Positions 1 to 40,325 of a DNA stretch of 64,000 bases are shown here, piece by piece. Each line of letters starts with the position of its first letter. The stretch's first letter is position 1. The DNA is from Desulfarculaceae bacterium (GTDB lineage: Bacteria; Desulfobacterota; Desulfarculia; Desulfarculales; Desulfarculaceae): positions 124,001 to 188,000 of the forward strand of contig JAIPEN010000006.1 of assembly GCA_021737145.1 (NCBI GenBank), written 5' to 3'. A program made the position numbers and the translations under genes. The notes below the pieces were generated by a model. It searched no databases, had not been told where the DNA came from, and saw only the letters and a program-made list of their open reading frames with translations.

Positions 1-1459
1 GACCCAAAACGTGGGTGAGGATGATCAAAATCTGCACATGCTTGAACTGGCGGCCAAAGGCGTCGGCCCGGTTCTTGACCAGCTTTTCCAACAGGCGCAG
101 CCGGTGGGCCCACTTCACGTCGCGCAGCGCCTGGCGGGCCTCCTGGGTCAGCTCGGGGTGACGCTTCAGCTCGGCCTTTTGCTCCGGGTCTTCCAGATAG
201 GAATAGATGACCTTGAGACATCGCTCGAACTGCTCGGAGCTGTAGTCGGCCAGGATGTTGCGGTGCTTGTGCAGCCAGGCGGTGAGGAACTTCAGCCGGG
301 TGGCGGTCTCGGCCGTGCTGCTTAGCTTCTCGCGGCCGCCGTAGATGATGGAGCCCTCGTGCTCGCCGCGCACGATGTCCTGCAAGAGCAGCACCCGGTC
401 GCGGCTCAGGCCCAGAACGTCCAGCCCGCTCAGGGCCTCGCCGGTGAGGGGGTGGATCACCTCCTGGGCGGCCACGCTCATGGCCCGGTCCTCCAGCACG
501 TTGCCCGGGTGATAGGCGTGCTGGTTGTAGTGCACCCTGAGCAGCACCACCCGCCGCTTGGGATCCACGTAATAACCGCCCTCCTGGAGCTCCTTGTGGC
601 CGGCCTTGCTGCAGCCGCCCGCGGTCACCAGGGCCGCCTTCTCCACCCGGGGCAGGCCCTGCCTGGCCCCGATGCTGCTCAGGCTGGTGATGGCCCGGTC
701 CGAGTGGCCCAGCACCTTTACCACGAAGTGCTCCCTCCGCCGCATGAGCCGCCGGGCGAACAGGGCGGCCGAGGTGTGGCGCTCCCCGCAGATGGGAAAG
801 CCGGTCTGCTCCATGAGGAAGTTGTACACGAACTGGCGGTTAGCCGCGTAGGACTCGTTGTCGCCCGGCACGAACTTGCCCACCCGCCGGCCGAAGCGCT
901 TTATCTCGCCGTCCAGGTCCGAGGGGAAGGAGGCGAAGGCCCCGGCCAGGTGGAACTGGCCCTCTTGGTCGCGGGCCAGCACGTGCCCCCGGTCCATGGC
1001 CATGAGCAGGGGCATGAGCTGCACGTAGCGCCGCACCGGGGTGGGGCCGCCCAGGCCCAGGGCCTGGTTCATGTCCGGGGCCAGGTTGCGGGGCAGGCGC
1101 CGCCGCAGGGTGGCCCGATTGGCCGCGGCCAGCCCGCGGTCCGGGGGATCGCCCTCGGCGTAAAACTGGTCGTATTGGAAGCCCTCGTCCTGATAGCTCA
1201 AGGGCCGGTCCAGGGCCACCATGGAAAATGCAGGCAAATCACGGTATTCGATGAGCGGAGCGTCAAAGGGCGGGATCAGTTCGGCCGGCTCCACCAGGGG
1301 ATAGGAGGGGTGGTAGGGCTCCAAAAGCCCCTGGTGCATATGCAGAAAATCCAACACCCGGGACACCTGGGACAGGCTGCCGCCGGGTTTTTTTTGCTCC
1401 AGGATTTTCCACAGGCCCACCTCGCCTATTAGGGCTTTCGCGAACCAGCGAGGTGGCAT
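1..1459 (-). CDS. Unrecognised large protein, N-terminal 486 codons (runs off window)
   Basis: An uninterrupted minus-strand frame starts at the ATG at 1459-1457, preceded by a GGAGGA ribosome site at 1466-1471, and is still open at base 1. The protein begins MPPRWFAKALIGEVGLW and is soluble-looking, with no signal peptide, membrane segment or Cys cluster. It holds a basic stretch (RRRLPRNLAP), a CGERHTSAALFARRLMRRRE segment and a C-terminal part rich in charged helices. I do not recognise the family and assign no function. A possible -35 TTGACC lies upstream with a poor -10. It is divergent from the tRNA gene. The plus-strand frames here are GC-rich shadows. Confidence 0.75.
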   Translation of the reverse strand, partial: MPPRWFAKALIGEVGLWKILEQKKPGGSLSQVSRVLDFLHMHQGLLEPYHPSYPLVEPAELIPPFDAPLIEYRDLPAFSMVALDRPLSYQDEGFQYDQFYAEGDPPDRGLAAANRATLRRRLPRNLAPDMNQALGLGGPTPVRRYVQLMPLLMAMDRGHVLARDQEGQFHLAGAFASFPSDLDGEIKRFGRRVGKFVPGDNESYAANRQFVYNFLMEQTGFPICGERHTSAALFARRLMRRREHFVVKVLGHSDRAITSLSSIGARQGLPRVEKAALVTAGGCSKAGHKELQEGGYYVDPKRRVVLLRVHYNQHAYHPGNVLEDRAMSVAAQEVIHPLTGEALSGLDVLGLSRDRVLLLQDIVRGEHEGSIIYGGREKLSSTAETATRLKFLTAWLHKHRNILADYSSEQFERCLKVIYSYLEDPEQKAELKRHPELTQEARQALRDVKWAHRLRLLEKLVKNRADAFGRQFKHVQILIILTHVLG

Positions 1460-1561
1460 GGATTTTCCTCCGCAATCACAATACGTTGTCTATAGTTAAC
1501 ATTTTGGGAACTTAATGGTCAATCAAATGCGGATCAATACGGTTCTCAATAAGCCCAGACA

Positions 1562-1590
1562 TTGACAACCCCCCGTTGTTCTGATAGATA
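1562..1590 (+). promoter_or_regulatory. Sigma-70-type promoter of the tRNA-Ala gene
   Basis: A perfect -35 TTGACA (1562-1567), a 17-base spacer and a weak -10 TAGATA (1585-1590) place the start of transcription about five bases before the tRNA. Position and spacing fit a tRNA promoter. Confidence 0.6.
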
Positions 1591-1601
1591 AAGAGCCCTT
1601 C

Positions 1602-1677
1602 GGGGCTGTAGCTCAGCTGGGAGAGCGCATGACTGGCAGTCATGAGGTCGTCGGTTCGATCCCGATCAGCTCCACCA
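1602..1677 (+). tRNA. tRNA-Ala (anticodon GGC), CCA encoded
   Basis: The 76-base sequence folds into a full cloverleaf. The acceptor stem GGGGCTG pairs with CAGCTCC, the D stem is GCTC/GAGC, and the anticodon stem CATGA/TCATG encloses loop CTGGCAG, giving anticodon GGC. The T stem GTCGG/CCGAT carries loop TTCGATC, followed by discriminator A and a genomically encoded CCA. It reads GCC codons, abundant in this GC-rich genome. Confidence 0.97.
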
Positions 1678-1687
1678 CGGATATCCA

Positions 1688-1718
1688 GGGCTTAGGCGTT
1701 TTCGCCTAAGCCCTTTTT
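1688..1718 (+). terminator. Intrinsic terminator after tRNA-Ala
   Basis: An 11-base-pair stem (GGGCTTAGGCG with CGCCTAAGCCC, loop TTTT) is followed by TTTTT. It sits 10 bases after the tRNA CCA end, so it ends the monocistronic tRNA transcript. Confidence 0.93.
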
Positions 1719-1934
1719 CTTGGCCTTTTGGGTATAAATCAGCGGCGGCCGGCTCAATGTAGCCGGCCGCTGGTCTTTGCGGGAACAGCCGTTGGCCCGC
1801 CCCGCGCTTGTTACTTTTTGAATTGTGGGTGTTTTCTGAGAATCCGGGCAGGATGTCTTTGAAAAAGGCGTTGCGAATCAGGTTGATCAGCGCCTGCAAG
1901 GTGTTGGTGTCCGGCTCGCCGAGGCGTCCGGAAA
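1719..1934. other. Non-coding stretch, probably degraded sequence
   Basis: No gene is supported here. A 10-bp GC hairpin (GCGGCCGGCT / AGCCGGCCGC, near 1745-1771) follows the tRNA terminator. The part around 1805-1900 is clearly less GC-rich than its surroundings. Its minus-strand frame reads like a protein tail (includes LQALINLIRNAFFKDILPGF) without a credible start, so it may be a second gene remnant. Confidence 0.4.
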
Positions 1935-1937
1935 TGC

Positions 1938-2126
1938 CGGTCTTGGCGGCCCACCCTGTGCCTGGAGAGCGGGCAGAGCCACCTCGGCTCCGAGGTCATG
2001 CCCTGGATCGCCTATCAGACACCCGGCGCGCGGGTGATGATGTTCGACACCCACCACCAGGTTTTTTTGGAAGACCCCGCCGGCTTCAACGCGGCGGTCC
2101 TGTCTTTGCTGAAGGAGCTCGCCTAG
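1938..2126 (+). pseudogene. C-terminal remnant of an alpha/beta-hydrolase
   Basis: Reading from about 1956 to the TAG at 2124-2126 gives LCLESGQSHLGSEVMPWIAY, then about 18 residues, then the segment THHQVFLEDPAGFNAAVLSL and a normal C-terminus. This is typical of the last 60 residues of alpha/beta-hydrolase-fold enzymes, where the HHQVFLE/D-P-FN segment carries the catalytic histidine. No nucleophile elbow, oxyanion motif or start codon is found upstream, and the frame loses sense before about 1950. It is therefore best read as a truncated relic. It converges on the QmoB-like gene, whose stop lies 10 bases downstream. Confidence 0.6.
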
Positions 2127-2135
2127 GCCCGGCTC

Positions 2136-4265
2136 TCAGCTCACGATGGCAAAGGTGTCGTCCATCTCCAGGGTGAAGCGCGAGAGCATCTCGCGCACCC
2201 GGGCCCCGGTCTTGAGCGGGTTGGGACCCAGCTCGGCCAGCGCGGCCAGGGCGTTCTCGATGGCCCCGCGCGCCTCCACGGCCTGGCTGGGGGCCACCCC
2301 GGACCGGAACACCCGCTCCCGGCCCAGGCCGGTCTCCTCCAGCAGGTTGCCCAAATGCTCCCAACGGCGGGCGGCCCAGGTGCTGCCGCCCAGGGATTGG
2401 CAGGCGTCCTCGTGGCAGGAGAGCATGAGCACCCCGTCGAACCCGCGCCTGATTCCCTCCAGCACCATGTCCAGATCCACCTTGCCCGCGCAGGGCACGG
2501 TGATCAGGCGGGCGCCAGGGGGCAGGGGTGCGCCCTTGAGGCGGGCGGCGTGCAGGGCCGGGGCCGCGCTGTTGGCGCAGGCCAGCACCAGCAGGCCCCG
2601 CTCCCCGGCCGGGGACAGTCCGCTGCTCTGGCCGGCGGCGGCGGCGATTTCCTGGCCGTAGCGCTCATCCTCCAGGCCCACGATCTGGATGGCCTCCATG
2701 GGGCACTCGGCCGCGCAGGTGCCGCAGGTGGTGCACACCAGGGGGTTGCTCACCGGCCGCCGGAACAGGCGGTCCATGGCCCCTTGGGGGCAGACCCGCA
2801 CGCAGGTAAGGCAGATGGTGCAGCGTTTGCGGTCCACCAGCACCCGGCCGGTCTCGGCCAGGGGCGCGCCCCGGCCCAACAGCTGGCGGGCGGCCCGGGC
2901 CGCATCGGCCGCCTCGTCGGCCCAGCGCATGGGCTCGCCCTGGCCCCGGGCCGGACCCACCAGCCACTCCCCGCCCCGGCCGCTGGCCAGGGGCAGGGCG
3001 CTGATCGCCTCGGGCTGCAAGGAGCCGTCGCGCCCCACGGCCAGGCCCAGGGTCCCGGCCAGGCCGCGGTAGTCATCGTCCGGCTGTGGCACTTGGTCCA
3101 CGGCCAACAGATCGAACTCGTCGGCCATGACCCGGCCCAGCACCTCCTCGTCCCACTCCAGGGCCAGGCGCGGCAGGGCGGCATTCAGGCGCAGGCCGCC
3201 GCTGGTAAACTTGACCATGACCACGCCCAGGCCCCGGGCCTCCTGGGTCAGGCGCTCCAGGCCCGGCCCGGCCACTTTGGCGTTGCCGGTGAACAACACC
3301 ACCTCGCGCTCCGGGTCTTGGGCCAGTTCCATGGCCGCCAGGGTGGCGGCGCGCAGGGTCAGGGGATCGGACTGGCGCCCCAGGCCCACGGCCAGGGCCA
3401 CCTTGAGCGGCCCTTCGCCCAGGCGCTTTTTGAGGTGCTCCGGCGCGCTGGCCAGGCCCTTCAGCTCGCTCAGGGAGATCACCCGCTCATTGGGCTCGAT
3501 CCCCGGCGGCAGGTTCAGGCCCAGGGGCGGGCCCTGGGCCACCACCACCCCGCCCAGCTCCAGGGCGTGGGTCTCGCCGCCCCGGTCCTGGATGCGGGCC
3601 GTGAACTGCCCGGCCGTGCCGCCGAGCGACAGCAGCCGCCCCTGGCGGAACAGGCCAAGGCCGGATGCCTCCTCCAGCCCGGAGGCCAGCTCCCCGGCGC
3701 GTTCGGCCGCCTCGGGCCCCAACAGGGGCTCGGGCGGGGTCAGGCGCTTGCCCGGGCTCAGCAGCACCACCTCGTAGCCCGCGTCCAGCATTGAGCGCGC
3801 GGCCATAAGCGCGGCCAGGCCCGCGCCCAGCACCAGCACCCTGGTGCTCACCGCCATCTCTTCCTGGCCAAGCTCCTGGCTGAAGGCCAGGCTGCTCAGG
3901 GCCTGGCTAAGGGCGGCGGCCGCCCCCGGAGCCACGGCGCAGGCCCCGGACCTCTCGCCCTCGGCCCGGGCGCAGAGATCGAGCACCGTGGCCATGTCCG
4001 GGTTCAGGCCCTCGGCGGCCAGGGCCCGGCTTAGCTGGCCGGGATGGTGCAGCAGGGGGCAGGCCCCCACCACCGCCGCGCCCAGGCCCAGCTCCTTGAT
4101 GCGCCGGGCAATGGCCTGGGCGCCCTCGGCCTGGCAGCTCTGGGCCACGGTGAACACCGCGCCCGGCGCCGCCTCGGCCGCCCAACGCAACTGCTTGAAC
4201 TCCAGGGAATCGGCGGTTCCCCGCCCGCCCTGGCACAGGAAGACTCCCAGCGAGGCCGCGCTCAT
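2136..4265 (-). CDS. QmoB-like HdrA/MvhD-type flavo-iron-sulfur oxidoreductase subunit
   Basis: This 709-residue protein has the QmoB layout. An N-terminal domain opens with a degenerate GVFLCQGG signature, then comes an FAD/Rossmann region starting at VLVLGAGLAALMAA (about residue 145), and two ferredoxin-type clusters (CTICLTCVRVCP and CTTCGTCAAECP, about 480-525). A C-terminal MvhD-like domain follows, with VPCAGKVDLD and SCHEDACQSL. The first MvhD cysteine motif (normally CCNWC) is reduced to ACANSAA, and the third glycine of the FAD loop is Ala. Its ATG overlaps the TGA of the QmoA-like gene (ATGA), so the two are translationally coupled. In Qmo, QmoAB passes electrons between quinone-linked QmoC and APS reductase. 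No QmoC or AprAB is present here, so a role inside the MetFV/Hdr complex is inferred. Confidence 0.85.
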   Translation of the reverse strand: MSAASLGVFLCQGGRGTADSLEFKQLRWAAEAAPGAVFTVAQSCQAEGAQAIARRIKELGLGAAVVGACPLLHHPGQLSRALAAEGLNPDMATVLDLCARAEGERSGACAVAPGAAAALSQALSSLAFSQELGQEEMAVSTRVLVLGAGLAALMAARSMLDAGYEVVLLSPGKRLTPPEPLLGPEAAERAGELASGLEEASGLGLFRQGRLLSLGGTAGQFTARIQDRGGETHALELGGVVVAQGPPLGLNLPPGIEPNERVISLSELKGLASAPEHLKKRLGEGPLKVALAVGLGRQSDPLTLRAATLAAMELAQDPEREVVLFTGNAKVAGPGLERLTQEARGLGVVMVKFTSGGLRLNAALPRLALEWDEEVLGRVMADEFDLLAVDQVPQPDDDYRGLAGTLGLAVGRDGSLQPEAISALPLASGRGGEWLVGPARGQGEPMRWADEAADAARAARQLLGRGAPLAETGRVLVDRKRCTICLTCVRVCPQGAMDRLFRRPVSNPLVCTTCGTCAAECPMEAIQIVGLEDERYGQEIAAAAGQSSGLSPAGERGLLVLACANSAAPALHAARLKGAPLPPGARLITVPCAGKVDLDMVLEGIRRGFDGVLMLSCHEDACQSLGGSTWAARRWEHLGNLLEETGLGRERVFRSGVAPSQAVEARGAIENALAALAELGPNPLKTGARVREMLSRFTLEMDDTFAIVS

Positions 4266-5491
4266 GGCTGCATCTCCTCCAGGTAGCCCAGGGTTTGCTC
4301 CACCGCCCGCCCGGCCGAAGCCACCGCCTCGGCCACGTCCATGGGCCCCAGGGCCGTGCCGGCCAGGAACACGCCGTCCCGACCCGTACCGTCCAAAAAG
4401 CCGGACTCGTCCAGCCCGGCCCCGGTCAGCTTGGCCAGGGCCTGGTTGGCCGGGTTGGGGCTCAGGCCCACGCTGAGCACCACCAAATCAAAGGGCTCGC
4501 TCACCGGGGCCTGGCCCTCGCCGGGCTGGTAGTCCACCCTGAGGCCGCCCTGGTGATGGCCGTAGACGTCGTAGGGCATGGAGCGGATCAGCCGCAGCTC
4601 GCTGGCGGCCGCGTCCAAAAAATCATCCACCGCGTGTCCGAAGCTCTGCAGGTCCATGTAAAACACCGCCACCTCGCAGCCCTGGCGGCCGCTCAGGGCC
4701 CGGCCCAGGCGCAATGCATAGCCGCAGCACACCCGCGAGCAGTAGTTGTTGCCCGCCACCTCCCGCGAGCCCACGCACTGGATAAAGGCCACCTTGTTGG
4801 CGGGCCGGCCGTCGCTGGGCCGTATGGCCCGGCCCTGGTCGCGCAGCATCCGCTCCAGCTCAAAGGCGGTGACCACATCCGGGAAGCGGCCGTAGCCCAG
4901 GCGTTCCCTCGGGGTGGGATCAAAGGGCGTGAACCCGGTGGCCAGCACCAGGGCCGAGACCTCCAGGGCCTTTTCGCGGTCCTCTTGCCTGAAGTCGATG
5001 GCCTCCTCGGGGCACAGGTCCACGCATACCGTGGAGCGGCCGTCCTTGAAATACAGGCATTGCTCCGGGTCGATGGCCAGGCGGGGAGACTCGGCCGCCA
5101 AGCGGGGCAAGCGGATGGCCCCGTCCTCCAGGGCCGGGCAGGCCTCCAGGCACAGGCCGCAGGCGGTGCAGCGCTCCGGGTCGATGTAGGCCGGCCGCTG
5201 GCACACCACCGCCTGGTAGCCCTGCTCCGTGGCCGTGAGGCTTTGCACCTCGGCCCGGCGGTGCAGGCTGATCAAGGGATGCCCGGCCGTGGCGGTCAGG
5301 CGGGGCTCGGACAGGCAGCCGTTGCACTTGAGGCACTGGTCCACCGCCTTGCAGGCCAGCCAGGCGGCGTGCCCCCCCAGAAAGTCGTCGCGCTCCACCA
5401 GGTCCACCGGCACTCCCTGCTCGGCCAGCTCCAGGGCGGCGGTGGCCCCGGCCACCCCGCCTCCTATGACCAACACCCGCTTTTCAGCCAT
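4262..5491 (-). CDS. QmoA-like / HdrA-like FAD and 4Fe-4S subunit
   Basis: This 409-residue protein matches QmoA length. It starts with an FAD loop (VLVIGGGVAGATAALELA, residues 6-23) and the HdrA-type substrate-side cysteines CLKCNGC. A ferredoxin motif CTACGLCLEACP and a second, incomplete cluster (CLYFKDGRSTVCVDLC) follow. The HdrA core motifs FIQCVGSRE, YCSRVCC and LSVGLSPNP are all present. It lacks the N-terminal and C-terminal extensions of full HdrA. It lies 22 bases after metF and overlaps the QmoB-like gene by four bases. Homology to HdrA/QmoA is firm. The exact partner, Qmo complex or MetFV-Hdr supercomplex, is inference. Confidence 0.87.
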   Translation of the reverse strand: MAEKRVLVIGGGVAGATAALELAEQGVPVDLVERDDFLGGHAAWLACKAVDQCLKCNGCLSEPRLTATAGHPLISLHRRAEVQSLTATEQGYQAVVCQRPAYIDPERCTACGLCLEACPALEDGAIRLPRLAAESPRLAIDPEQCLYFKDGRSTVCVDLCPEEAIDFRQEDREKALEVSALVLATGFTPFDPTPRERLGYGRFPDVVTAFELERMLRDQGRAIRPSDGRPANKVAFIQCVGSREVAGNNYCSRVCCGYALRLGRALSGRQGCEVAVFYMDLQSFGHAVDDFLDAAASELRLIRSMPYDVYGHHQGGLRVDYQPGEGQAPVSEPFDLVVLSVGLSPNPANQALAKLTGAGLDESGFLDGTGRDGVFLAGTALGPMDVAEAVASAGRAVEQTLGYLEEMQP

Positions 5492-31578: not shown

Positions 31579-31911
31579 ATGTTAAAGCGAATTCTGATGG
31601 TGCTGTTGGTTCTGAGCTTCATCGGCGTCGGCCTGGGTGTGTCCCTGGCCGCCGACGGCAAGGGCAACTCCCGCAAGGGCAAGTACCTCTACCGCAAAAA
31701 CTGCCGCACCTGTCACGTGGAAAACGGCAAGGCCAAGGAGCTGAGCCCCGTCAGCAAGACCCAGGCTCAGTGGAAGACCACCTTCGCCGACCCCAAGAAG
31801 CTGCCCTGCGCGGGCGAGTGGGCCAAGCTGTCGGACAAGGACCTCACCGACATTTACGCCTATCTCTGGGGACACGCCAAGGACTCGCCTTCCCCGGCCA
31901 AGTGCAAGTAA
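31579..31911 (+). CDS. Periplasmic mono-heme cytochrome c
   Basis: This 110-residue protein has a signal peptide (MLKRILMVLLVLSFIGVGLG, cleavage near SLA-AD) and one heme-attachment motif CRTCH. The short remaining domain includes LPCAGEWAKLSDKDLTDIYAYLW, typical of small class I cytochromes. It is probably an electron carrier to the reductase encoded next. GAGGAGAGG precedes the ATG. A distal Met ligand is not obvious. Confidence 0.9.
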   Translation: MLKRILMVLLVLSFIGVGLGVSLAADGKGNSRKGKYLYRKNCRTCHVENGKAKELSPVSKTQAQWKTTFADPKKLPCAGEWAKLSDKDLTDIYAYLWGHAKDSPSPAKCK

Positions 31912-31983: not shown

Positions 31984-34182
31984 ATGGCTGATTCCTATCG
32001 CCCCGCCCTGTCCCGGCGCGGCTTCCTCAAGCTGGCCGGCGCGGCCGGCGCGGCCGCGGCCCTGGGCGGCGGAGGGCTGTCGGCATCCAAGCCTGCCCAG
32101 GCTGCCGGTGGCCTCCGCCCCGGCTTTGAGAGCAAGTTCACCGTGTGCGACATGTGCTTCAACAAGTGCAGCGCCATCGCCCGGGTGCAGGGCGGGGTAG
32201 TTCAGAAGCTGGACCCCAACCCCAAGTTCCTCAAGTCGCGCGGCATGCTCTGCGCCCGGGGCAACGCCGGGGTGGAGCAGGTCTACAGCCGCGACCGCCT
32301 CAAATATCCCCTGCTCCGAGTGGGCGAGCGCGGCGAAGGCAAGTTCAAGCGCATCTCCTGGGACGAGGCTTTGGACATCGCGGCCGAAAAGATGAAGTCC
32401 ATCGGCGAGCGCTATACCCGCTGCGGCTTCATGTTCATGGCCGGCAGCGACATGCAGTCCTCCTTCGTGCACCGCTTCGCCGAGGCCTACGGCTCCTACA
32501 ACACCCTAAGCCATGAGTCCATGTGCCTCATCGCGGGCACCCGGGCCTTTTTGGACACCTTCGGCGAGGTGCCCATCCCGGACATGCTCTACACCAAATA
32601 CGTGGTCATGGTGGGGGCCAACCGCTTCGAGTCCCTGGTCACCCCCGACAGCATCGACCTGATGACTGCCATGAATAACGGGGCCAAGCTGGTGGTGCTG
32701 GACCCGCGCTACACCAAGACCGCGGCCAAGGCCGACGAGTGGTTCGCCATCCGGCCCCGCACCGACATGGCCTTCATGCTCGCCCTGGCCCATGTGCTCA
32801 TCAAGGAGAAGCTCTACGACCGGAAGTTCGTGGGAGAAAAGACCTACGGTATCGAGCAACTGGCCAAGCACGTGGAGCCCTGCACCCCCCAGTGGGCCTC
32901 CGAGCAATGTGACATCCCGGCCGAGGACATCGCCCGCATCGCGCGCGAGCTGGCCAAGGCGGCCCCGGCGGCCATGGTCTACCCCGGCCGCCGCTCCTCC
33001 AACTACACCGACTCCACCCAGATCCGGCGCTCCTACGCCATAGTCAACGCTCTCTTGGGCAACTGGGACCGCCCCGGCGGCCTCACCGCCGCCCGCAAGG
33101 TGGGTTTGTCCGGCGGGGTGCCCTTTGAGCCGCCATTTTACGAAAACAACCCCGAGGACCGCATCGACGCCGGACGCGCCAAGTTGATGTTCCCGGAGGA
33201 GGGATCGTTCAAGCTGGCCCGAGACGCGGTGATCGCCGGCAAGCCCTACCCGGTCAAAGGATGGTTCACCTATCACACCAATCCCATGCAGACCGCGGCC
33301 AACCGGCAGAAGACCATCAAGATGATCAACGACATGGAGTTCATGATCTCCATGGACATCCAGATGAGCGATACCGCCTGGATGGCCGACCTGGTGCTGC
33401 CCTCCCAGACCTACCTGGAGCGGCAGGACCCCTGCACGGCCCAACAGGGCTCCAGCGCCTGTGCCTGCGTGGTCATGCGCGATCCGGTGGTGGCCCCGCT
33501 ATACGAGTCCAAGCCGGTATTCTGGGTCATGCAGCAGATCGCCAGGCGCATCGGCCTGGGCGAGCATTTCGACTTCACCATTGAACAGTTCCGCGAAAAG
33601 CAGCTCTCCGGGCTGCAGGGAGCCATGGACGCCCTCAAGCGCGACGGGGTCTACTACAACCCTTCCAAGCTCTACGGGGTCTACGAGGGCAAGATCTACA
33701 AGACCAAGTCCCACAAGATCGAGCTGTTCAACAGCCGCTACGCCGAGATGGGGCTGGACCCCATGCCGGTGTACACCCCGCCCAAGGCCGGCGGCTACGA
33801 CCGCTTCCGCCTGGTGGTGGGGCGCAACGCTGTTATCACTCAGTCCTCCAGCCAGAACAACTCCCTGCTGGTCAAGTTCCAGCCCACCAATCACCTGTGG
33901 ATCCATCCGGACCCGGCCAAGGAGATGGGAATCAAGGACGGCGATTGGGTGTGGGTCAAGGGCCCGCACGGCAAGCAGCGGCTGCAGGCCAAGGTGACCC
34001 ACCAGACCCGGCCGGACACGGTCTACATGGCCACCGGCTTCGGGGTGCTGAGCACGGGGCTCAAGAACATCTACGGCGAGGGCGCCTGCATCGCCGAGGT
34101 CTTGAACGACGATTTCGACGGAATCAGCGGCAACATGGCCATGCATGAGACCTGGGTCAGCGTGGGCAGGGAGGCGGCGTGA
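31984..34182 (+). CDS. Molybdopterin catalytic subunit, thiosulfate/polysulfide-reductase type (PhsA/PsrA-like)
   Basis: This 732-residue protein starts with a twin-arginine signal (LSRRGFLKLAGAAGAAAALG). A 4Fe-4S site follows (C55, C58, C62, C90), then the bis-MGD domains. SHESMC places Cys181 as the likely Mo ligand, as in Psr/Phs reductases. The ATG at 31984 follows GGAGAGAGCAACC, and an earlier in-frame ATG at 31954 has no better site. The order cytochrome c - A - B - C - rhodaneses points to periplasmic reduction of thiosulfate, polysulfide or a related sulfur compound. Tetrathionate, arsenate or other oxyanions cannot be excluded. Confidence 0.9.
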   Translation: MADSYRPALSRRGFLKLAGAAGAAAALGGGGLSASKPAQAAGGLRPGFESKFTVCDMCFNKCSAIARVQGGVVQKLDPNPKFLKSRGMLCARGNAGVEQVYSRDRLKYPLLRVGERGEGKFKRISWDEALDIAAEKMKSIGERYTRCGFMFMAGSDMQSSFVHRFAEAYGSYNTLSHESMCLIAGTRAFLDTFGEVPIPDMLYTKYVVMVGANRFESLVTPDSIDLMTAMNNGAKLVVLDPRYTKTAAKADEWFAIRPRTDMAFMLALAHVLIKEKLYDRKFVGEKTYGIEQLAKHVEPCTPQWASEQCDIPAEDIARIARELAKAAPAAMVYPGRRSSNYTDSTQIRRSYAIVNALLGNWDRPGGLTAARKVGLSGGVPFEPPFYENNPEDRIDAGRAKLMFPEEGSFKLARDAVIAGKPYPVKGWFTYHTNPMQTAANRQKTIKMINDMEFMISMDIQMSDTAWMADLVLPSQTYLERQDPCTAQQGSSACACVVMRDPVVAPLYESKPVFWVMQQIARRIGLGEHFDFTIEQFREKQLSGLQGAMDALKRDGVYYNPSKLYGVYEGKIYKTKSHKIELFNSRYAEMGLDPMPVYTPPKAGGYDRFRLVVGRNAVITQSSSQNNSLLVKFQPTNHLWIHPDPAKEMGIKDGDWVWVKGPHGKQRLQAKVTHQTRPDTVYMATGFGVLSTGLKNIYGEGACIAEVLNDDFDGISGNMAMHETWVSVGREAA

Positions 34183-34934
34183 TGGCTAAGCAACTGGGCA
34201 TGGTAATCGACGCCAACGCCTGCATCGACTGCAAGGGCTGCATGGTCGCCTGCAAGGTGGCCAACCAGGTGCCCGGAGACAACTGGCGCAACTGGATCAA
34301 GGACGGCGCGATGGACCGGAGCGCCAAGAGCAAGAAACGCATGGTCTTCCAGCCGGGCAACTGCATGCAGTGCGACAAGCCCACCTGCGTCACCGCCTGC
34401 CCCACCGGGGCCACCTACAAGAGCAAGGCGGACGGGGTGGTGATGATCAACCGCGACTTGTGCATCGGCTGCGGCCAATGCATCAAGGCCTGCCCCTATG
34501 GGGCCCGCTACCGCAACGAGAAGCTCAAGGTGGCTGACAAGTGTGACTTCTGCTCCAACCGCCGCGAGGTGGGCCTGGAGCCCGCCTGCGTGAGCACCTG
34601 CCCCACCAAGGCGCGGGCCTTCGGCGACTTGAACGACCCCTCATCCCCGGCGGGCAAGCTCTACGCCGCCCAAAAGGAAGAGGCGGTGCAGGTGGTCAAT
34701 GCCCAGAGCGACACCGACCCAAACATCTACTACCTGGGTGCGCCCGGCGACAAGCACTGGCCGGTCAAGGCCCAGATGCCCTCGGCCTTCACCTTCTGGA
34801 AGAACGTGGCCGATCCCGGGGTCAAGGTGCTCATGGGCCTGATGGGCGTGGGCGTGCTGGCCATGCTGGGCAAGCAACTGGTCATGAAAAACGACGCTCC
34901 CGAGGAGCATCACGGGGAGGACGGCCATGAGTAG
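34182..34934 (+). CDS. 4Fe-4S electron-transfer subunit (PhsB/PsrB/DmsB-like)
   Basis: This 250-residue protein has four ferredoxin-type motifs: CIDCKGCMVAC, CMQCDKPTCVTACP, CIGCGQCIKACP, and CDFC ... CVSTCP. They are in the standard order of DmsB/PsrB subunits and form the wire between catalytic and membrane subunits. A C-terminal helix (VKVLMGLMGVGVLAMLG) adds a membrane anchor not found in most PsrB proteins, followed by an acidic His-containing tail. ATG 34182 overlaps the A-subunit stop (TGATG). It ends eight bases inside the next gene. Confidence 0.94.
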   Translation: MAKQLGMVIDANACIDCKGCMVACKVANQVPGDNWRNWIKDGAMDRSAKSKKRMVFQPGNCMQCDKPTCVTACPTGATYKSKADGVVMINRDLCIGCGQCIKACPYGARYRNEKLKVADKCDFCSNRREVGLEPACVSTCPTKARAFGDLNDPSSPAGKLYAAQKEEAVQVVNAQSDTDPNIYYLGAPGDKHWPVKAQMPSAFTFWKNVADPGVKVLMGLMGVGVLAMLGKQLVMKNDAPEEHHGEDGHE

Positions 34935-35673
34935 CCGCCAGGTCCCCCGCCACACCAGGGCGGGCATCTTCATTCACTGGTTCAACGCGGCCTGCTGGTT
35001 TTTCCTGCTGGTCACCGGTGTGGCCCTCATCTCCAACCCGGAGCTCAACCCCCTGGGCGCCTGGTACCCCAAGGCGGTCCGCGCGATTTTCTTCGGCGGC
35101 GAGAACCTCCTGGTTGCCCACTGGCTGGTGGCCTTCATCTGGCTGGCGGTGTGGCTGGTCTACCTGTTCTGGGGCATGAACCGCCTCGTGGCGCCGTTTA
35201 TCAACTCCATCTTCACCATTGAGCCCAACCGCGACATCCAGTGGATGATCAAGAAGAACCTACAGATGACCGTGGGCTACAAGATGATGGCCAGGCTGGT
35301 CAAGCCCCTGGGCTACGACGGGACCATGCCCGATCAGGGCTACTACAACGTGGGCCAGAAGCTGGCCGCCCAGGGGCTCATCATCGGCGGGCTGGCGCTG
35401 GTGGGCACCGGCTTCATCATGTTCACCAGCAAGTACTTCCTGACCGCGGCCGACGTCTGGCTGGTGCAGTGGTCCATCACCGTGCACTTCATCGCCGCCG
35501 GGGTTACCACCGCCCTGCTGATCCTGCACATTTACATGGCCGCCATCAGCTCCGAGGAGCGCCCGGCCTTCATTTCCATGTTCACCGGAACCGTGCCGGC
35601 CGAGTATGCCAAGCATCACCACCGGCTCTGGTACGACGAGCTAGAGGATTCCAAACCATCGGAGGTAGGATAA
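34927..35673 (+). CDS. Membrane cytochrome b subunit (FdnI/PhsC-like)
   Basis: This 248-residue protein has four predicted membrane helices and histidines in the first (IHWFNAACWF), second (VAHWLVAF) and last pair (ITVHFIAAG, LILHIYMAA). These fit heme b ligation as in formate-dehydrogenase gamma and PhsC-type cytochromes. It connects quinol to the B subunit. The extra C-terminal cytoplasmic stretch ends HHHRLWYDELEDSKPSEVG. It overlaps the B gene, so the ABC set is co-translated. Confidence 0.9.
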   Translation: MSSRQVPRHTRAGIFIHWFNAACWFFLLVTGVALISNPELNPLGAWYPKAVRAIFFGGENLLVAHWLVAFIWLAVWLVYLFWGMNRLVAPFINSIFTIEPNRDIQWMIKKNLQMTVGYKMMARLVKPLGYDGTMPDQGYYNVGQKLAAQGLIIGGLALVGTGFIMFTSKYFLTAADVWLVQWSITVHFIAAGVTTALLILHIYMAAISSEERPAFISMFTGTVPAEYAKHHHRLWYDELEDSKPSEVG

Positions 35674-35675
35674 AC

Positions 35676-36866
35676 ATGAAACGTTTCAGCAGAAGCCTGG
35701 CCGTGGCCTTGGTGGCCATCCTGGCCGTGGCCCTGGCCGTCCCGGCCCTGGCCTCGGAAAAACCGGCTTTCAAGACTTATCCCAACATCGTTGACGCCGC
35801 TTTTGTCAAGGAAGTGGTGGACGGCAAGGTGAAGGGATACATTTTCGACGCCCGGCCCTACAAGAAGAAGTACGTCAAGGGGCACATACCCGGCGCGGTG
35901 AACCTGCCCACCACCTACTTCGATCAAAAGAAGAACCTGCTGCCTGCCGATAAGAGCGCGCTGGTCGTGTTCTACTGCGGCGGCCTCAAGTGCGCCCTGA
36001 GCCACAAGAACGCCTATAAGGCCCAGGCCCTGGGCTACAACAACATCGTGGTTTTCGCCAAGGGCTACCCCAACTGGAAGAAGGCCTACGGCGCCGGTGT
36101 GACCGGCCCCAACCCCACGGCCGTGGCCGCCAAACCCGCCTTCAAGACCTTCCCGGTCATCGTGGAGGCGGCTTTCGTCAAGGACGTGGTGGACGGCAAA
36201 AAGGTGGGCCTGGTCATCGACGCTCGCCCCAAGAAAAAGAAGTATGACAAGGGTCACATCCCCGGATCCCTGAGCATGCCCACCAGCCAGTTCGGCAAAC
36301 TCAAGGGCCTGCTGCCGGCTGACAAGAGCGCCCTGATCGTGTTCTACTGCGGCGGCCTCAAGTGCGCCCTGAGCCACAAGGCCGCGTTCAAGGCCCAGGC
36401 CATGGGCTACAAGAACGTTAAGGTCTTCGCCAAGGGCTACCCCAACTGGAAAAAGACCTACGGCGCCGGCGCCATGGGCGTGGCCAAGGCCGCGGCCCCC
36501 AAGAAGGCGGCCAAGGGCAGCCTCAAGCCGGGCAAGGAAGAGGGCAGCGTGGACCTGGTCTACTTCCAGAAGACCTACAAGAAGAGCCCTCAAAGCATCT
36601 ATCTGGTGGACGTGCGCGACCCGGGCGAGTACAAGGCCGGGGCCATCAAGGGCTCGGTCAACATCCCGGTGGACAAACTGGCGGCTAGCATCGGCAAGCT
36701 GCCCAAGGACAAGCCCGTGGTGTTCGTGTGCGGCACCGGCGCCCGCTCCGGCGAGGCCTACTACATGATCAAGGACCTGGCCCCGAAGATGTCCGATGTG
36801 TACTACATCGACGGCGAGACCACCTTCAACTCCGACGGCACCTACAAGGTGGGCCCTCCCAAGTAG
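35676..36866 (+). CDS. Exported triple-rhodanese protein
   Basis: This 396-residue protein has a signal peptide (MKRFSRSLAVALVAILAVAL) and three rhodanese domains. Domains 1 and 2 are near duplicates (about 25-140 and 150-270), with active loops reading YCGGLKCALSHKNAY and YCGGLKCALSHKAAF. Domain 3 (about 295-390) has VCGTGARSGEAYY. Each first Cys is the expected persulfide carrier. The second Cys of C-GGLK-C is an unusual paired residue. GGAGGTAGG precedes the ATG. Directly after the PhsABC-like genes, it probably binds sulfane sulfur for or from the reductase in the periplasm. Confidence 0.93.
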   Translation: MKRFSRSLAVALVAILAVALAVPALASEKPAFKTYPNIVDAAFVKEVVDGKVKGYIFDARPYKKKYVKGHIPGAVNLPTTYFDQKKNLLPADKSALVVFYCGGLKCALSHKNAYKAQALGYNNIVVFAKGYPNWKKAYGAGVTGPNPTAVAAKPAFKTFPVIVEAAFVKDVVDGKKVGLVIDARPKKKKYDKGHIPGSLSMPTSQFGKLKGLLPADKSALIVFYCGGLKCALSHKAAFKAQAMGYKNVKVFAKGYPNWKKTYGAGAMGVAKAAAPKKAAKGSLKPGKEEGSVDLVYFQKTYKKSPQSIYLVDVRDPGEYKAGAIKGSVNIPVDKLAASIGKLPKDKPVVFVCGTGARSGEAYYMIKDLAPKMSDVYYIDGETTFNSDGTYKVGPPK

Positions 36867-36873
36867 GGATGCC

Positions 36874-37911
36874 TTGCGTCATCGGCTGAAATGGCTGAAC
36901 AACGGCCCGGCTCCCCTTGCCGGGGGGCCGGGTTTCGTCTTGGCCCTGGTCCTGGCGGTCCTGCTTCTGGCCGCCGGGCCCACCCGCGCGGCCGCGCCCT
37001 CATGGTGGGCCCAGGCCCGGGCCCAGGCCGATCATTACGGCTACGGCCTGATCGACGATGCTGGCCTGGACCAGCTCCTGGCCTCGGGTAAGGACTTCCT
37101 GCTGCTGGACGTGCGGCCGGATTATGAATACGCCCAGGGCCACATCAAGGGATCGACAAACCTGGAGTTCCACCTGGGAGACCGCCTGAAGCTGGACCCG
37201 GCCAAGGCCCAGAAGTTCGCCGAGTTGGCCGGGCCGGACCACAAGCGGCTGCTGGTTATCTACTGCCGCTCTTTCCGCTGACTGCGCAGCGGCATCGCCG
37301 CCCGCTGGGCCGTGAGCCTGGGCTACAAGAAGGTTCTGCGCTACGCCGGGGGCTGGCACGGCTGGCTGGCCCACCAGGGCAAGGCATCGGCGGAGCTGCC
37401 TCCGGCCGGGCTCAAGAAGGGCGACTACTTCCCCTCCTGCCGCCTGGTGCTGCTCAACAAGGCATCCGACCGGGCCTACCTGGGTATAACCCACCGGGAG
37501 TCGGCCTTCTCCCTGGAGGACGTGGACGCGGACTACTTGTTCGTGGAGCTCTACGACGAGCTGTGCTTCGGCTGCCTCAAGGAGGTGGCCTCCTACAACC
37601 ATCTGTTCTCGGATATCCAAAAGGACCCCTTTCTCAAGGGGCGAATGAAGATGCTGGGCCTGGGGGTGGGCAGCCTCAACCGCGAGGTGATGCGCTTCCG
37701 TCGCCAAAAGAAGGTGCTCTTCCCTCTGTTCGCCGACCGACGCCGCGAGGTCTTCAACTGTCTGGGCATGCCCGAGTTGCCGGTGGCCTACCTAATCAAG
37801 CGCACGGGTCACGGCCGCTGGAAGATTCTGAAAATCATGTCCGGGCACATCGGGGACACCGGCGCGGTGCTGCGCCAGATCAAGGCGACGGTGGCCGCGG
37901 CCGCGCCCTAG
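36874..37911 (+). CDS. Rhodanese-thioredoxin fusion, predicted selenoprotein (in-frame TGA = Sec136)
   Basis: The frame from TTG 36874 (AGGGA upstream) codes a signal peptide (VLALVLAVLLLAAGPTRAAA) and a rhodanese domain, then meets TGA at 37279-37281, then continues in the same frame to 37911 with full coding sense, 345 residues in all. Across the TGA the loop reads IYC-RSFR-U-LRSGIAA, lining up with YC-GGLK-C-ALS of the neighbouring triple rhodanese, so Sec takes the place of the second Cys. The rhodanese ending (GYKKVLRYAGGWHGW) lies after the TGA. A C-terminal thioredoxin-like domain carries CFGC (231-234). A hairpin follows the TGA. The other reading is two fragments of a broken gene. 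The clean frame and alignment argue against that. Confidence 0.85.
37275..37307 (+). promoter_or_regulatory. Candidate bacterial SECIS element at the TGA codon
   Basis: CAGCGG (37287-37292) can pair with CCGCTG (37302-37307), giving a stem-loop beginning five bases after the TGA. It can alternatively pair with CCGCTG at 37275-37280, which overlaps the TGA. A nested GCGGC-ATC-GCCGC fold is also possible. Bacterial SECIS hairpins sit in this position, but sequence alone does not settle which fold forms. Confidence 0.5.
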
Positions 37912-38555
37912 GCTATCTGGTCGACCTCGGCGGCCAACAACTCCAAAATGGCGATGAGCAGCTTGGCGGCCAGGGGATACAGGGCCACGGGCGCGGCCTC
38001 CTCCTGGCGGGCCAGGAACTCCTTGACCCAGGGCAGCATGAAGCGCCCCGCGAACTCGGCCGCCTCGGCCTGGCCCTCGCCCCGCCGCCCGCCCCATGCC
38101 TCCTCCAGCAGATAGATGAGGTACTCCAACTCCACGGCCAGATGGTCCGGGGGCTCGCCCGGCTTTTCTTCCAGGGCCAGGCCCTCGGCCTCCAGGCGCG
38201 CGGCCATGCTGCCGGCCGGCGGGCCCATCACCCGGCCCTCGCCCACATAGCAGGAGTGATACAGCGGCGCGGGCACCCCGCCGGGCCGGGAGACGAACAG
38301 CTCCACGTAGCCCGGCTCCAGCTCGGCGCACAGCTCTTCCGGCGCGGCGAAGCCCTCGATATAAGCGCCCAGGGAGCGCATCGTCCCGGCCGCGTCTGGC
38401 ATCAGGCCGGCCAGCTCGCCCAGGAGCTCGCCGGTCTCCGGACCTGCCAGGTCCCCGCACAACTCCGGGTCCGGGCCCCAATAAAGGCGGGCCAACAGGG
38501 CCAGGCCGTCCAGCACCGCCTCCTGCCCTGGTTCCATTTGCTCCAGCTCGCTCAT
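37908..38555 (-). CDS. TorD/DmsD-family molybdoenzyme chaperone
   Basis: This 215-residue, all-helical protein has the family signatures YVELFVSRPGGVPAPLYHS and PPDHLAVELEYLIYLLEE. Such proteins guard the signal peptide and help insert the molybdopterin cofactor. The partner is most likely the PhsA-like enzyme at 31984-34182, which carries a Tat signal. It is convergent with the selenoprotein gene and overlaps its end by four bases. The ATG at 38555 is preferred over the longer frame to 38582. Confidence 0.9.
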   Translation of the reverse strand: MSELEQMEPGQEAVLDGLALLARLYWGPDPELCGDLAGPETGELLGELAGLMPDAAGTMRSLGAYIEGFAAPEELCAELEPGYVELFVSRPGGVPAPLYHSCYVGEGRVMGPPAGSMAARLEAEGLALEEKPGEPPDHLAVELEYLIYLLEEAWGGRRGEGQAEAAEFAGRFMLPWVKEFLARQEEAAPVALYPLAAKLLIAILELLAAEVDQIA

Positions 38556-38629
38556 GACCGGTTGCCTGCCTCGCTCCCCCAAAGATTAGGGCCGCCCCAG
38601 GGCGGCCCGGTTGACTCGATTGGCCGCGG

Positions 38630-39274
38630 CTAGTCCCAGATGGGCTCGGCCGAGGCGTCCACCGCCCCCAGCACCAGCTCGGCGATCTGCTCCTCGGCCG
38701 CCTCCAGGTGCACCAGGCTGGTGTTGAGCACCATGTGGTAGAGGCTGGGGTCGTTGGGGTCGCCCTTGTGGAAGTTGGCCAAAAAACGTTCCCGCTTGCG
38801 CGATTCGCGGGTGACCATGGCCTCGGCCTTGTCCGGGGGCATGTTGTACATGCCCTCCATGAACTTGATGCGGTCGGCCCGCTCGGCCACCAGGAGCACC
38901 CGCATGGTGTCGGGGTGCTGGCGCAGGATGAATTGGCTGCCCCGGCCCAGGAGCACCACGTTGTCCTCCTCGGCCAGGTCCAGGATGATGCGGGTCAGGA
39001 ACTCCACGTAGCGCTTTTCGTCAAAGTCCGAGCCGCTCTCGCCCAGATGGCGGTCGATGAAGGTGGAGGGCACCAGGCTGGTCAGGATGCGCATGAGCCG
39101 CCCCCCGGCTTCGCGCTGCACCCCCTCCACCCACTTGATGGAAACGTTGGCCTCTTCGGCCACCTTCAGCAGCAGTCCTTCGTCCACGAACTCGTACCCC
39201 AGCCGCTGGGCCACCCTCTGGCCCAGAGTCTTGCCGCCCGCGCCGAACTGCCGTGAAATGCTTAAAACCGCCAT
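38630..39274 (-). CDS. Cytidylate-kinase-like family protein (copy 1)
   Basis: This 214-residue P-loop protein opens MAVLSISRQFGAGGKTLGQ, where the GAGGKTLG loop replaces the classic GxxxxGKS. VVLLGRGSQFIL and RVLLVAERADR are typical of the cytidylate-kinase-like family (Pfam CMK2), whose substrate is not established. It shares about the same length and most motifs with the next gene upstream, so the pair is a tandem duplication. Both are read in the minus direction, 57 bases apart. Confidence 0.88.
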   Translation of the reverse strand: MAVLSISRQFGAGGKTLGQRVAQRLGYEFVDEGLLLKVAEEANVSIKWVEGVQREAGGRLMRILTSLVPSTFIDRHLGESGSDFDEKRYVEFLTRIILDLAEEDNVVLLGRGSQFILRQHPDTMRVLLVAERADRIKFMEGMYNMPPDKAEAMVTRESRKRERFLANFHKGDPNDPSLYHMVLNTSLVHLEAAEEQIAELVLGAVDASAEPIWD

Positions 39275-39331
39275 TATCGCCCTCCGCCGATTCTAGGTCC
39301 GCGCTGCTACAGAATTTGGAAAGGTCCGTAA

Positions 39332-39964
39332 TCAAGCATAGGCATGCTGTTTCAGCTTCTCTTCTATGCGGCGCACCAGCCGGACCACCAGGTTGGTGGC
39401 CCCCGAAATGCTCAGCAGGCTGGTGTTGAGCACCAGATGGTACAGGCTGGATTCGTCCGGCTCGCCGGGATAGAAGTTGTTCAAGAAGCGGGCCCGCTTC
39501 TTGTCCGCCTCGGCGATGAGCTTCCTGGCCGTGGCCTGGTCCATGTCGTAGTGCTGAACCATGAAGTTCACCCGCTGCTCCAACTCGGACACCAACAGCA
39601 CCCGCACCGTGTCCGGCCGGTAGCGCAGGATGAACTGGGCCCCCCGGCCCAGGAGCACCACCTTGCCCGCCTCGGACAACTCCTGAATCACCCGGCTCAG
39701 GCTTTCGATGAGCGCCTTGTCCTCGCCCTGGGCCCCGGTCCAGCGGTCCATGAAGTTGCTGGGGGCCAGAGAGGTCAACAACTCCACCACCTGGGTGTGA
39801 TACTGGCTCTGGGTAGCTTCCTGCCCGTTGGCTTGGTCTGCTTGCGCGGCCATCTGGTCCAGCTGGGATTCATGCAAAAAATGGTAGCCAAGCTCGCTGG
39901 CCACCATCTCTCCCAAGGTCCTGCCCCCGGCTCCGAACTGACGCGAAATGCTCAGCACCGCCAT
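39332..39964 (-). CDS. Cytidylate-kinase-like family protein (copy 2)
   Basis: This 210-residue paralogue of the neighbouring gene starts identically (MAVLSISRQFGAGG) and keeps VVLLGRGAQFILR, VRVLLVSELEQRV and SLYHLVLNTSLL. The linker after residue 40 is Gln-rich (QADQANGQEATQSQ). GGGAGGGG precedes the ATG at 39964. The 39-codon extension to 40081 lacks family similarity. Two diverged copies side by side suggest a heteromeric or specialised pair. Substrate unknown. Confidence 0.87.
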   Translation of the reverse strand: MAVLSISRQFGAGGRTLGEMVASELGYHFLHESQLDQMAAQADQANGQEATQSQYHTQVVELLTSLAPSNFMDRWTGAQGEDKALIESLSRVIQELSEAGKVVLLGRGAQFILRYRPDTVRVLLVSELEQRVNFMVQHYDMDQATARKLIAEADKKRARFLNNFYPGEPDESSLYHLVLNTSLLSISGATNLVVRLVRRIEEKLKQHAYA

Positions 39965-40325
39965 GCCCGGCCCCTCCCTTCTGCCCCGGCAACTGGACTC
40001 TCGGTCTCGCCAAGGTCCAGGCTTGGAGCTTTTTTGGTAGTTTTCATCATAAACCACCGGCCCTCCGCCTGGCAATGACATCCCAGGCGGCCTCTGGCAT
40101 TACCCGGTTGAAATGCTCCCGGCCGCTCCTCTATACTGGCCACGGACGGCAAAGGTCCGGCGGGTCGGCAGCCGGCCGGGCCAAACGCGACACAGACTCC
40201 AACCATGACAACGACCGCTACGAGGACGCGAATCCGGAAGCACAGCAAGTTCAAGCTCTACTGAGACCCAGGCGCGAAGTCATAGAGGCTGTAGACACTC
40301 TCTTGCCCCAAGAGGTGAACCGCCC
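39965..40325. other. Divergent intergenic region before the Mrp operon
   Basis: No gene is supported in these 361 bases. It contains the plus-strand promoter at 40108-40137 and a leader of about 180 bases before the first antiporter gene. No clear riboswitch fold was recognised. Confidence 0.6.
40108..40137 (+). promoter_or_regulatory. Sigma-70-type promoter for the Mrp/Mbh operon
   Basis: TTGAAA (40108-40113), an 18-base spacer and TATACT (40132-40137) match the consensus at five of six positions each. They point toward the antiporter genes. Confidence 0.65.

Follow-up and report, generated by a model that had tools for sequence, protein, structure and literature searches.

Does the frame at 36874-37911, crossed by a single TGA, encode a selenoprotein, and what would such a protein do beside a Phs-like operon? 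The gene lies in a 64,000-nucleotide stretch of a Desulfarculaceae genome (the whole stretch that was analysed, hereafter the window), from a bacterium that belongs among the sulfate reducers and their relatives. A first-pass annotation of the bare sequence had proposed a rhodanese-thioredoxin fusion with selenocysteine (Sec) at the TGA. Rhodaneses with selenocysteine have been published, and so has the x4 pair of the active loop; what appears to be new is the joining of a rhodanese to a ResA-like domain, the pairing as C-x4-U and the association with phs genes. The table of rhodanese selenoproteins in the accessible part of the review PMC13188914 contains no rhodanese-thioredoxin fusion. No such fusion was named in the titles and abstract beginnings covered by a literature search, and the primary description of TsoB, a rhodanese selenoprotein treated below, might include one. 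The main text of the deep-Sep paper does not mention rhodanese. The roles of many rhodaneses in anaerobic respiration are unsettled, according to the accessible portions of PMC5317093 and PMC12998232.

The gene, its domains and its orthologues

Read through the TGA, the frame extends from a TTG start to a TAG stop and comprises 345 residues plus the stop, with residue 136 at the TGA (Table 1). The reading of a single TGA in a frame open on both sides was borne out, the two halves forming one conserved gene. Residue 136 does fall, as had been noticed, at the second Cys position of the C-x4-C loop in the neighbouring triple rhodanese, and residues 131 and 136 form a C-x4-U pair. The TTG start is supported because a TTG or GTG is kept at the aligned place, directly past the stop of the upstream rhodanese, in six of the ten orthologues from the order. 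Of the remaining four, L014 likewise has a TTG, just past a TAG upstream; two have other starts, and the last is truncated by the end of its contig.

Table 1. Predicted selenoprotein gene, its parts and the neighbouring genes, in window positions
Feature	Position	Strand	Remark
Predicted selenoprotein gene, rhodanese and thioredoxin-like fusion	36874..37911	+	345 residues with Sec136
Probable signal peptide	36874..36993	+	Basic start, hydrophobic stretch, then TRAAA; judged by eye, cut approximate
Rhodanese domain, residues 66-166	37069..37371	+	PF00581, 65.9 bits (cut-off 22.2)
Cys131, presumed catalytic rhodanese Cys	37264..37266	+	Cys in 17/17 orthologues
TGA codon read as Sec136	37279..37281	+	TGA in 8/17 orthologues, Cys in 9/17
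Cys189, linker	37438..37440	+	Cys in 16/17 orthologues
Thioredoxin-like domain, residues 210-312	37501..37809	+	PF00578 (AhpC-TSA-type), 27.8 bits (cut-off 26); ResA/DsbE-like fold
CFGC, the CxxC (Cys231, Cys234)	37564..37575	+	In 16/16 orthologues readable there
Small c-type cytochrome	31579..31911	+	Profile match
PhsA-like molybdopterin oxidoreductase, Tat signal	31984..34182	+	ORF opens at TTG 31954; ATG 31984 the likelier start, by eye
PhsB/TtrB-like iron-sulfur subunit	34179..34934	+	Profile match
PhsC-like cytochrome b561-type membrane subunit	34927..35673	+	Profile match
Triple rhodanese, two C-x4-C loops	35676..36866	+	Stop 7 bases before the selenoprotein start
TorD-like chaperone	37908..38582	-	Convergent; 4-base overlap with the end of the selenoprotein gene

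Both domains of the two-domain form first proposed were recovered by profiles above their cut-offs, and the CxxC of the thioredoxin-like half was kept wherever it could be read (Table 1); Cys296 was kept in 14 of 16 readable orthologues. No NCBIfam model reached its cut-off with the fusion: the rhodanese_LYCAU selenoprotein model NF041203 gave 28.1 bits (cut-off 115) and the ResA model 30.5 bits (cut-off 170). With the gene split at the TGA in the mechanical list of open reading frames (ORFs) and no NCBIfam model scoring high enough, misannotation of the family is probable. The gene itself appears to be unannotated, and close relatives have, by their translations, an ordinary Cys at the same site.

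A structure model of the fusion, built with 14 alignment rows, reached a pLDDT of 84.3 and a pTM of 0.55; the modelled domains are mostly confident and their mutual arrangement is not fixed by the model. Within the signal-peptide region the model placed a helix at residues 19-33, with low confidence for residues 1-18 and 34-37. The best Foldseek matches of the second half were of the ResA/DsbE type (best E 4.0e-8), and the first rhodanese among the matches listed was 6mxv, in 49th place (E 7.8e-6, TM-score 0.28-0.38). Compared with structure sequences, the family profile matched 6mxv, ResA entries and 1qxn (E 1.8e-5). ResA/DsbE-type thiol-disulfide oxidoreductases have the fold and the CxxC of the C-terminal half; the fusion differs from them by the attached rhodanese.

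In total, 17 distinct orthologues were compared. Ten of these, including the window's own gene and one cut by a contig start, came from 21 searched genomes of the order, and a wider scan of genome contigs gave seven more (L071, L072, L074-L076, L078 and L079). A phylum-wide search at E <= 1e-30 matched 19 of 395 genomes, 12 of which lie beyond the order and gave no more than partial matches; all seven additional orthologues therefore stem from the contig scan. L080 (37% identity over query residues 39-97) and the partial phylum matches, including L086, were not counted as orthologues. L066-L070, L073 and L077 were also left out of the count, being taken as duplicates of G007, G006, G009, G010, G014, G019 and G002. 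L016 is cut at its contig start, and L079 is masked in its second half, where its CxxC is unreadable. Three plasmid records were matched, in the rhodanese part only.

At the TGA column all 17 orthologues have either TGA or Cys and no other residue. The aligned codon in the ten genomes of the order is TGA four times and TGC six times, TGC being the only Cys codon used. Every orthologue runs through the site (L079 is masked further on). A chance open frame is excluded because the column is conserved as Sec or Cys across the whole set. Close homologues with another residue at the site and an unconserved part past the TGA, which would also have told against the first-pass reading, were thus not seen. 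dN/dS in six pairwise comparisons was 0.20-0.50 in the 95 codons before the TGA and 0.22-0.60 after it, and both halves are under purifying selection in these six pairs. The orthologue tree, several branches of which are long or weak, calls for four changes between Sec and Cys, and for three to four over the bootstrap trees; the well-supported branches alone force one.

Decoding of the TGA

The source genome (G000; 4.03 Mb, 94.7% complete) had profile matches above cut-off to selA (610.8 bits), selB (402 bits) and selD (374.8 bits). A tRNA-Sec candidate scored 73.2 bits (gathering score 47), and a second match scored 47.1 bits, barely above the cut-off. The tRNA-Sec model gives matches in all 14 control genomes and exceeds its cut-off in five only, so the 73-bit match is likely a tRNA-Sec gene. 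The sel genes, whose absence would have told against the first-pass reading, were thus found. The selD gene (L006, G000:C19) has an in-frame TGA of its own, in the predicted motif KARAAGUAAKIG near the N-terminus.

Genomes with the Cys form of the fusion were similarly equipped. selB was above its cut-off in five of the six genomes of the order with that form, and the sixth (G007) had a contig-end fragment of 237.8 bits against 242.25. Cys forms also occur in Sec-decoding genomes. Natural Sec/Cys pairs in close relatives, in genomes that decode Sec, would offer a ready comparison of what a rhodanese gains from selenium.

The annotation had also pointed to a stem-loop after the codon. A stem-loop is indeed present 3' of the TGA, with its loop 22 nt downstream; as an argument for a SECIS it was dropped. 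The 48 nt from the codon were folded in all 17 orthologues, and hairpins with a G in the apical loop were sought by a constrained search. In the window gene, at least equal stability was reached by 38% of the synonymous recodes, and by 30% when the G-containing loop was imposed. Hairpin stability showed no general excess over synonymous recodes, L017 alone standing out among the eight Sec orthologues, and Sec and Cys orthologues did not clearly differ. A hairpin with its loop at the same distance is formed by four of the Cys forms (L010, L012, L013 and L075). With synonymous recodes and several Cys orthologues folding equally well, no weight can be given to the SECIS argument, and the hairpin speaks neither for nor against a bSECIS. 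Rfam models run over the window gave one tRNA only.

Two other readings of the codon were considered. An altered code, with TGA as Trp, was rejected: the aligned residues are Cys, and TGA also serves as an ordinary stop, ending 7 of 17 window genes checked. It is hardly credible that no selenoprotein is made here, the locus being instead a split gene (a truncated rhodanese and a second protein from GTG 37312), a sequencing error or a dead gene. The two ORFs of the mechanical list and a SECIS signal that does not discriminate would suit this explanation; against it stand the TGA in orthologues from different assemblies, the Cys in all the remaining ones, the selection on either side of the codon and the presence of the sel genes. 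Sequence evidence as a whole supports 36874-37911 as a selenoprotein gene with Sec at residue 136.

Relatives among the rhodaneses

Of the known proteins, among four groups compared by sequence, the selenoprotein TsoB is closest to the rhodanese half; the first-pass annotation had not named it. In an unrooted tree of 41 rhodanese domains in four groups, for which the bootstrap had not settled, the fusion domain grouped with the TsoB domain (100/98), and two sets of domains from triple rhodaneses fell apart from them. The tree has no single-domain rhodaneses and neither the G004 nor the G002 triple rhodanese, so the grouping holds among the four groups only.

TsoB is listed as 'form 5, UxxxxU', a rhodanese/DsbD fusion-like selenoprotein, in the accessible part of PMC13188914, and the TsoB sequences of the order have U-x4-U in agreement with the table given there. 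In TsoB as in the fusion, a rhodanese is joined to a thiol-redox module and the x4 pair has selenium at its second position. The pair of TsoB is Sec at either end, and the protein includes a DsbD membrane part that has a thioredoxin too, whereas the fusion has Cys then Sec, no membrane domain and a ResA-like end. Membership of TsoB was rejected on score (88.9 bits against the cut-off of 805 of model NF045694, the match covering positions 12-152 of 572 in the profile) and on architecture (C-x4-U, no DsbD part).

TsoB genes above the cut-off, with two in-frame TGA codons, were found in four of 20 genomes of the order (G005, G012, G013 and G016), and the fusion was found in ten. None of the 20 genomes had both above the cut-off. 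Mutual exclusion of the two (chance 0.043, ignoring kinship) was considered and rejected, as G010 has the fusion together with a contig-end TsoB fragment (L113, G010:C557) 73% identical to the TsoB of G005.

Triple rhodaneses formed a second set of relatives. The source genome encodes one with a haem-type CLKCH motif (L052, G000:C10:5200-8000; 758-2110, minus strand), whose loop YCQGFRUVLS would be C-x4-U. This protein matched no NCBIfam model at its cut-off and may be related to the Geobacter ExtH of PMC5877670, to go by the accessible portion of that paper. Triple rhodaneses with CxxCH had C-x4-U in all 12 genomes fetched (L052 and 11 relatives), a count of 12/12 that arises by selection, the set having been picked for a flagged TGA. 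These genomes include the six whose fusion has Cys. A further triple rhodanese, in a PhsAB cluster of G019 (L063, G019:C38:20000-28000; 3793-4935, plus strand), contains two in-frame TGA codons and is apparently a double selenoprotein, with C-x4-U twice (YCQGPTUKLS and YCQGFTUKLS) where the triple rhodanese of the window has C-x4-C twice. Selenium at the x4 site would therefore recur in phs-linked rhodaneses.

The C-x4-U triple rhodaneses have the same loop pair as the fusion but three rhodanese domains and no thioredoxin half. The C10-type protein falls elsewhere in the rhodanese tree than the fusion, and the G019:C38 protein is outside the tree sample. Overall, predicted selenium at the second rhodanese x4 position recurs in several architectures of the order.

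Forms 1 to 5 of the rhodanese selenoproteins are given the motifs UxxS, UxxG, CxU, UxxG and UxxxxU in the accessible part of PMC13188914, which names WP_010941598.1 for 'form 1'. The ULRS of the fusion, beginning at Sec136, fits UxxS by the printed motif alone; because of this fit, form 1 may use the same site as Sec136.

Operon setting and proposed role

The link to a PhsABC-like cluster, also part of the first-pass claim, was upheld as to its conservation. PhsB and PhsC occur in the same gene run as the fusion in 15 of 17 orthologues, the triple rhodanese in 14 and TorD in 15; in G019, TorD is about 6 kb from the fusion. The naming of the first subunit was softened, as the neighbouring PhsA scored 562.6 bits against the curated cut-off of 694 of the NCBIfam PhsA model and is PhsA-like only. 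The two orthologues without phs genes are L072, where none occurs in the 5 kb examined upstream, and that of G014, whose gene stands at the very start of its contig. In L071 and L072 the triple rhodanese is on the downstream side of the fusion, and in G019, L079 and G014 the stretch next to the fusion did not show one.

Two clusters, G000:C14 and G019:C38, contain PhsA, PhsB and a triple rhodanese, with no PhsC in the stretch read and without the fusion. As both PhsC-less clusters lack it, these two cases suggest that the fusion goes with the membrane-bound Phs form. In G227 a rhodanese-only Cys relative (L086, 1501-1971) occupies the same operon position without a thioredoxin half, so the thioredoxin half is not indispensable.

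We regard it as close to an even chance that the fusion is a secreted, periplasmic, Sec-dependent sulfane-sulfur transferase or persulfide reductase working with the PhsABC-like enzyme. A rhodanese carries persulfide on its loop Cys. In the exported protein that we infer, Cys131 of the rhodanese domain would be loaded with sulfane sulfur by thiosulfate or polysulfide. The persulfide would then be attacked by Sec136, a second chalcogen placed five residues further along the active loop and so able to resolve it; this would release sulfide and leave a Cys131-Sec136 selenenylsulfide. This bond would be reduced by Cys231-Cys234 of the ResA-like domain, a fused CxxC of this kind being a natural reductant for it; contact between the CxxC and the pair is putative, the domain arrangement not being fixed at a pTM of 0.55. 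The ResA-like domain would in turn be recharged by a DsbD/CcdA-type membrane protein. The fusion would thus be a soluble sulfur acceptor and reductase with the same substrate as the molybdoenzyme of the operon. The Cys found at the Sec site in over half of the orthologues (Table 1) counts against a necessity of Sec.

For the electron source, a DsbD-type supply is suggested by analogy, because TsoB, which groups with the fusion rhodanese, has a DsbD-like part on the same chain. The source genome encodes two DsbD_TM proteins (G000:C8:2339-2977 and G000:C10:13565-14116), and a scan of ten window proteins around the cluster gave no DsbD-like one. The protein at G000:C10:13565-14116 is of CcdA size, lies about 6.3 kb from the Sec rhodanese of L052 and is a possible electron donor.

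Sud offers the closest precedent for a sulfur carrier beside a molybdoenzyme. The entry 1qxn is deposited as 'sulfide dehydrogenase'; we take it to be Sud, the polysulfide-sulfur transferase of Wolinella. Sud is a rhodanese, and to our knowledge it has neither a thioredoxin domain nor Sec. In the accessible part of PMC2628731 it is a periplasmic carrier that presents polysulfide to PsrABC, a molybdoenzyme of the type concerned here; the likeness of the fusion to it consists of the neighbourhood and the weak profile match to 1qxn given above. The fusion could accordingly be read as a Sud-like carrier whose rhodanese half binds polysulfide or other sulfane sulfur and hands it to PhsA for reduction, with Sec and thioredoxin keeping the carrier reduced. 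The conserved PhsABC neighbourhood, the profile match and the Wolinella precedent all argue for this reading, which we still consider unlikely: a pure carrier could do without a resolving Sec and without a fused CxxC, and the adjoining triple rhodanese, present also in the G000:C14 cluster without the fusion, is another candidate for the carrier.

ResA-like domains are reductants as a rule, and we judge it quite unlikely that the system runs in the oxidising direction, from sulfide or persulfide to thiosulfate or polysulfide or in disproportionation, with electrons passing to the quinone pool or to cytochrome c. The c-type cytochrome of the operon and its cytochrome b-type PhsC would fit such a direction. 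So would the clusters of molybdopterin A/B subunits with TorD ('MOLY') that the accessible part of PMC12998232 proposes as markers of disproportionation in Desulfobacterota, their likeness to the present cluster being one of description only.

The ResA-like fold, the haem and molybdoenzyme partners and the frequent nearness of TorD would also agree with upkeep of thiol-disulfide or cofactor sites in the exported partners, PhsA or the cytochrome, with the rhodanese half limited to sensing or repairing persulfidated Cys. Such a role would leave the restriction to phs clusters and the conserved rhodanese pair unexplained, and is very unlikely.

Returning to the persulfide reductase, its fullest version would make the fusion a self-contained periplasmic enzyme for persulfide (thiosulfate or polysulfide), in which the rhodanese Cys, the resolving Sec and the fused thioredoxin make up a single-chain catalytic relay that specifically serves a PhsABC-like respiratory operon. 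We hold this as possible, at somewhat under an even chance. If true, this would link selenium with the way anaerobic respiration deals with sulfane sulfur. At least four rhodanese architectures in Desulfarculaceae and related bacteria would then have selenium at the second C-x4-C position, namely the fusion, TsoB, the haem-type triple rhodanese and the phs-linked double-Sec triple rhodanese of G019, and a lineage-wide strategy of selenium for sulfur in sulfane-sulfur chemistry would be indicated.

Two minor observations concern the surroundings. L053 (G000:C14:109500-115500), the G000:C14 cluster named above, is a second cluster of PhsA, PhsB, cytochrome and triple rhodanese in the source genome, with neither PhsC nor the fusion in the stretch. 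On the minus strand of the window, at 38630-40081, there are two tandem cytidylate-kinase-like genes (PF13189). Of six other members of the genus that were read, two have stretches that end earlier or are cut, and the other four have the PF13189 pair beside the cluster as well.
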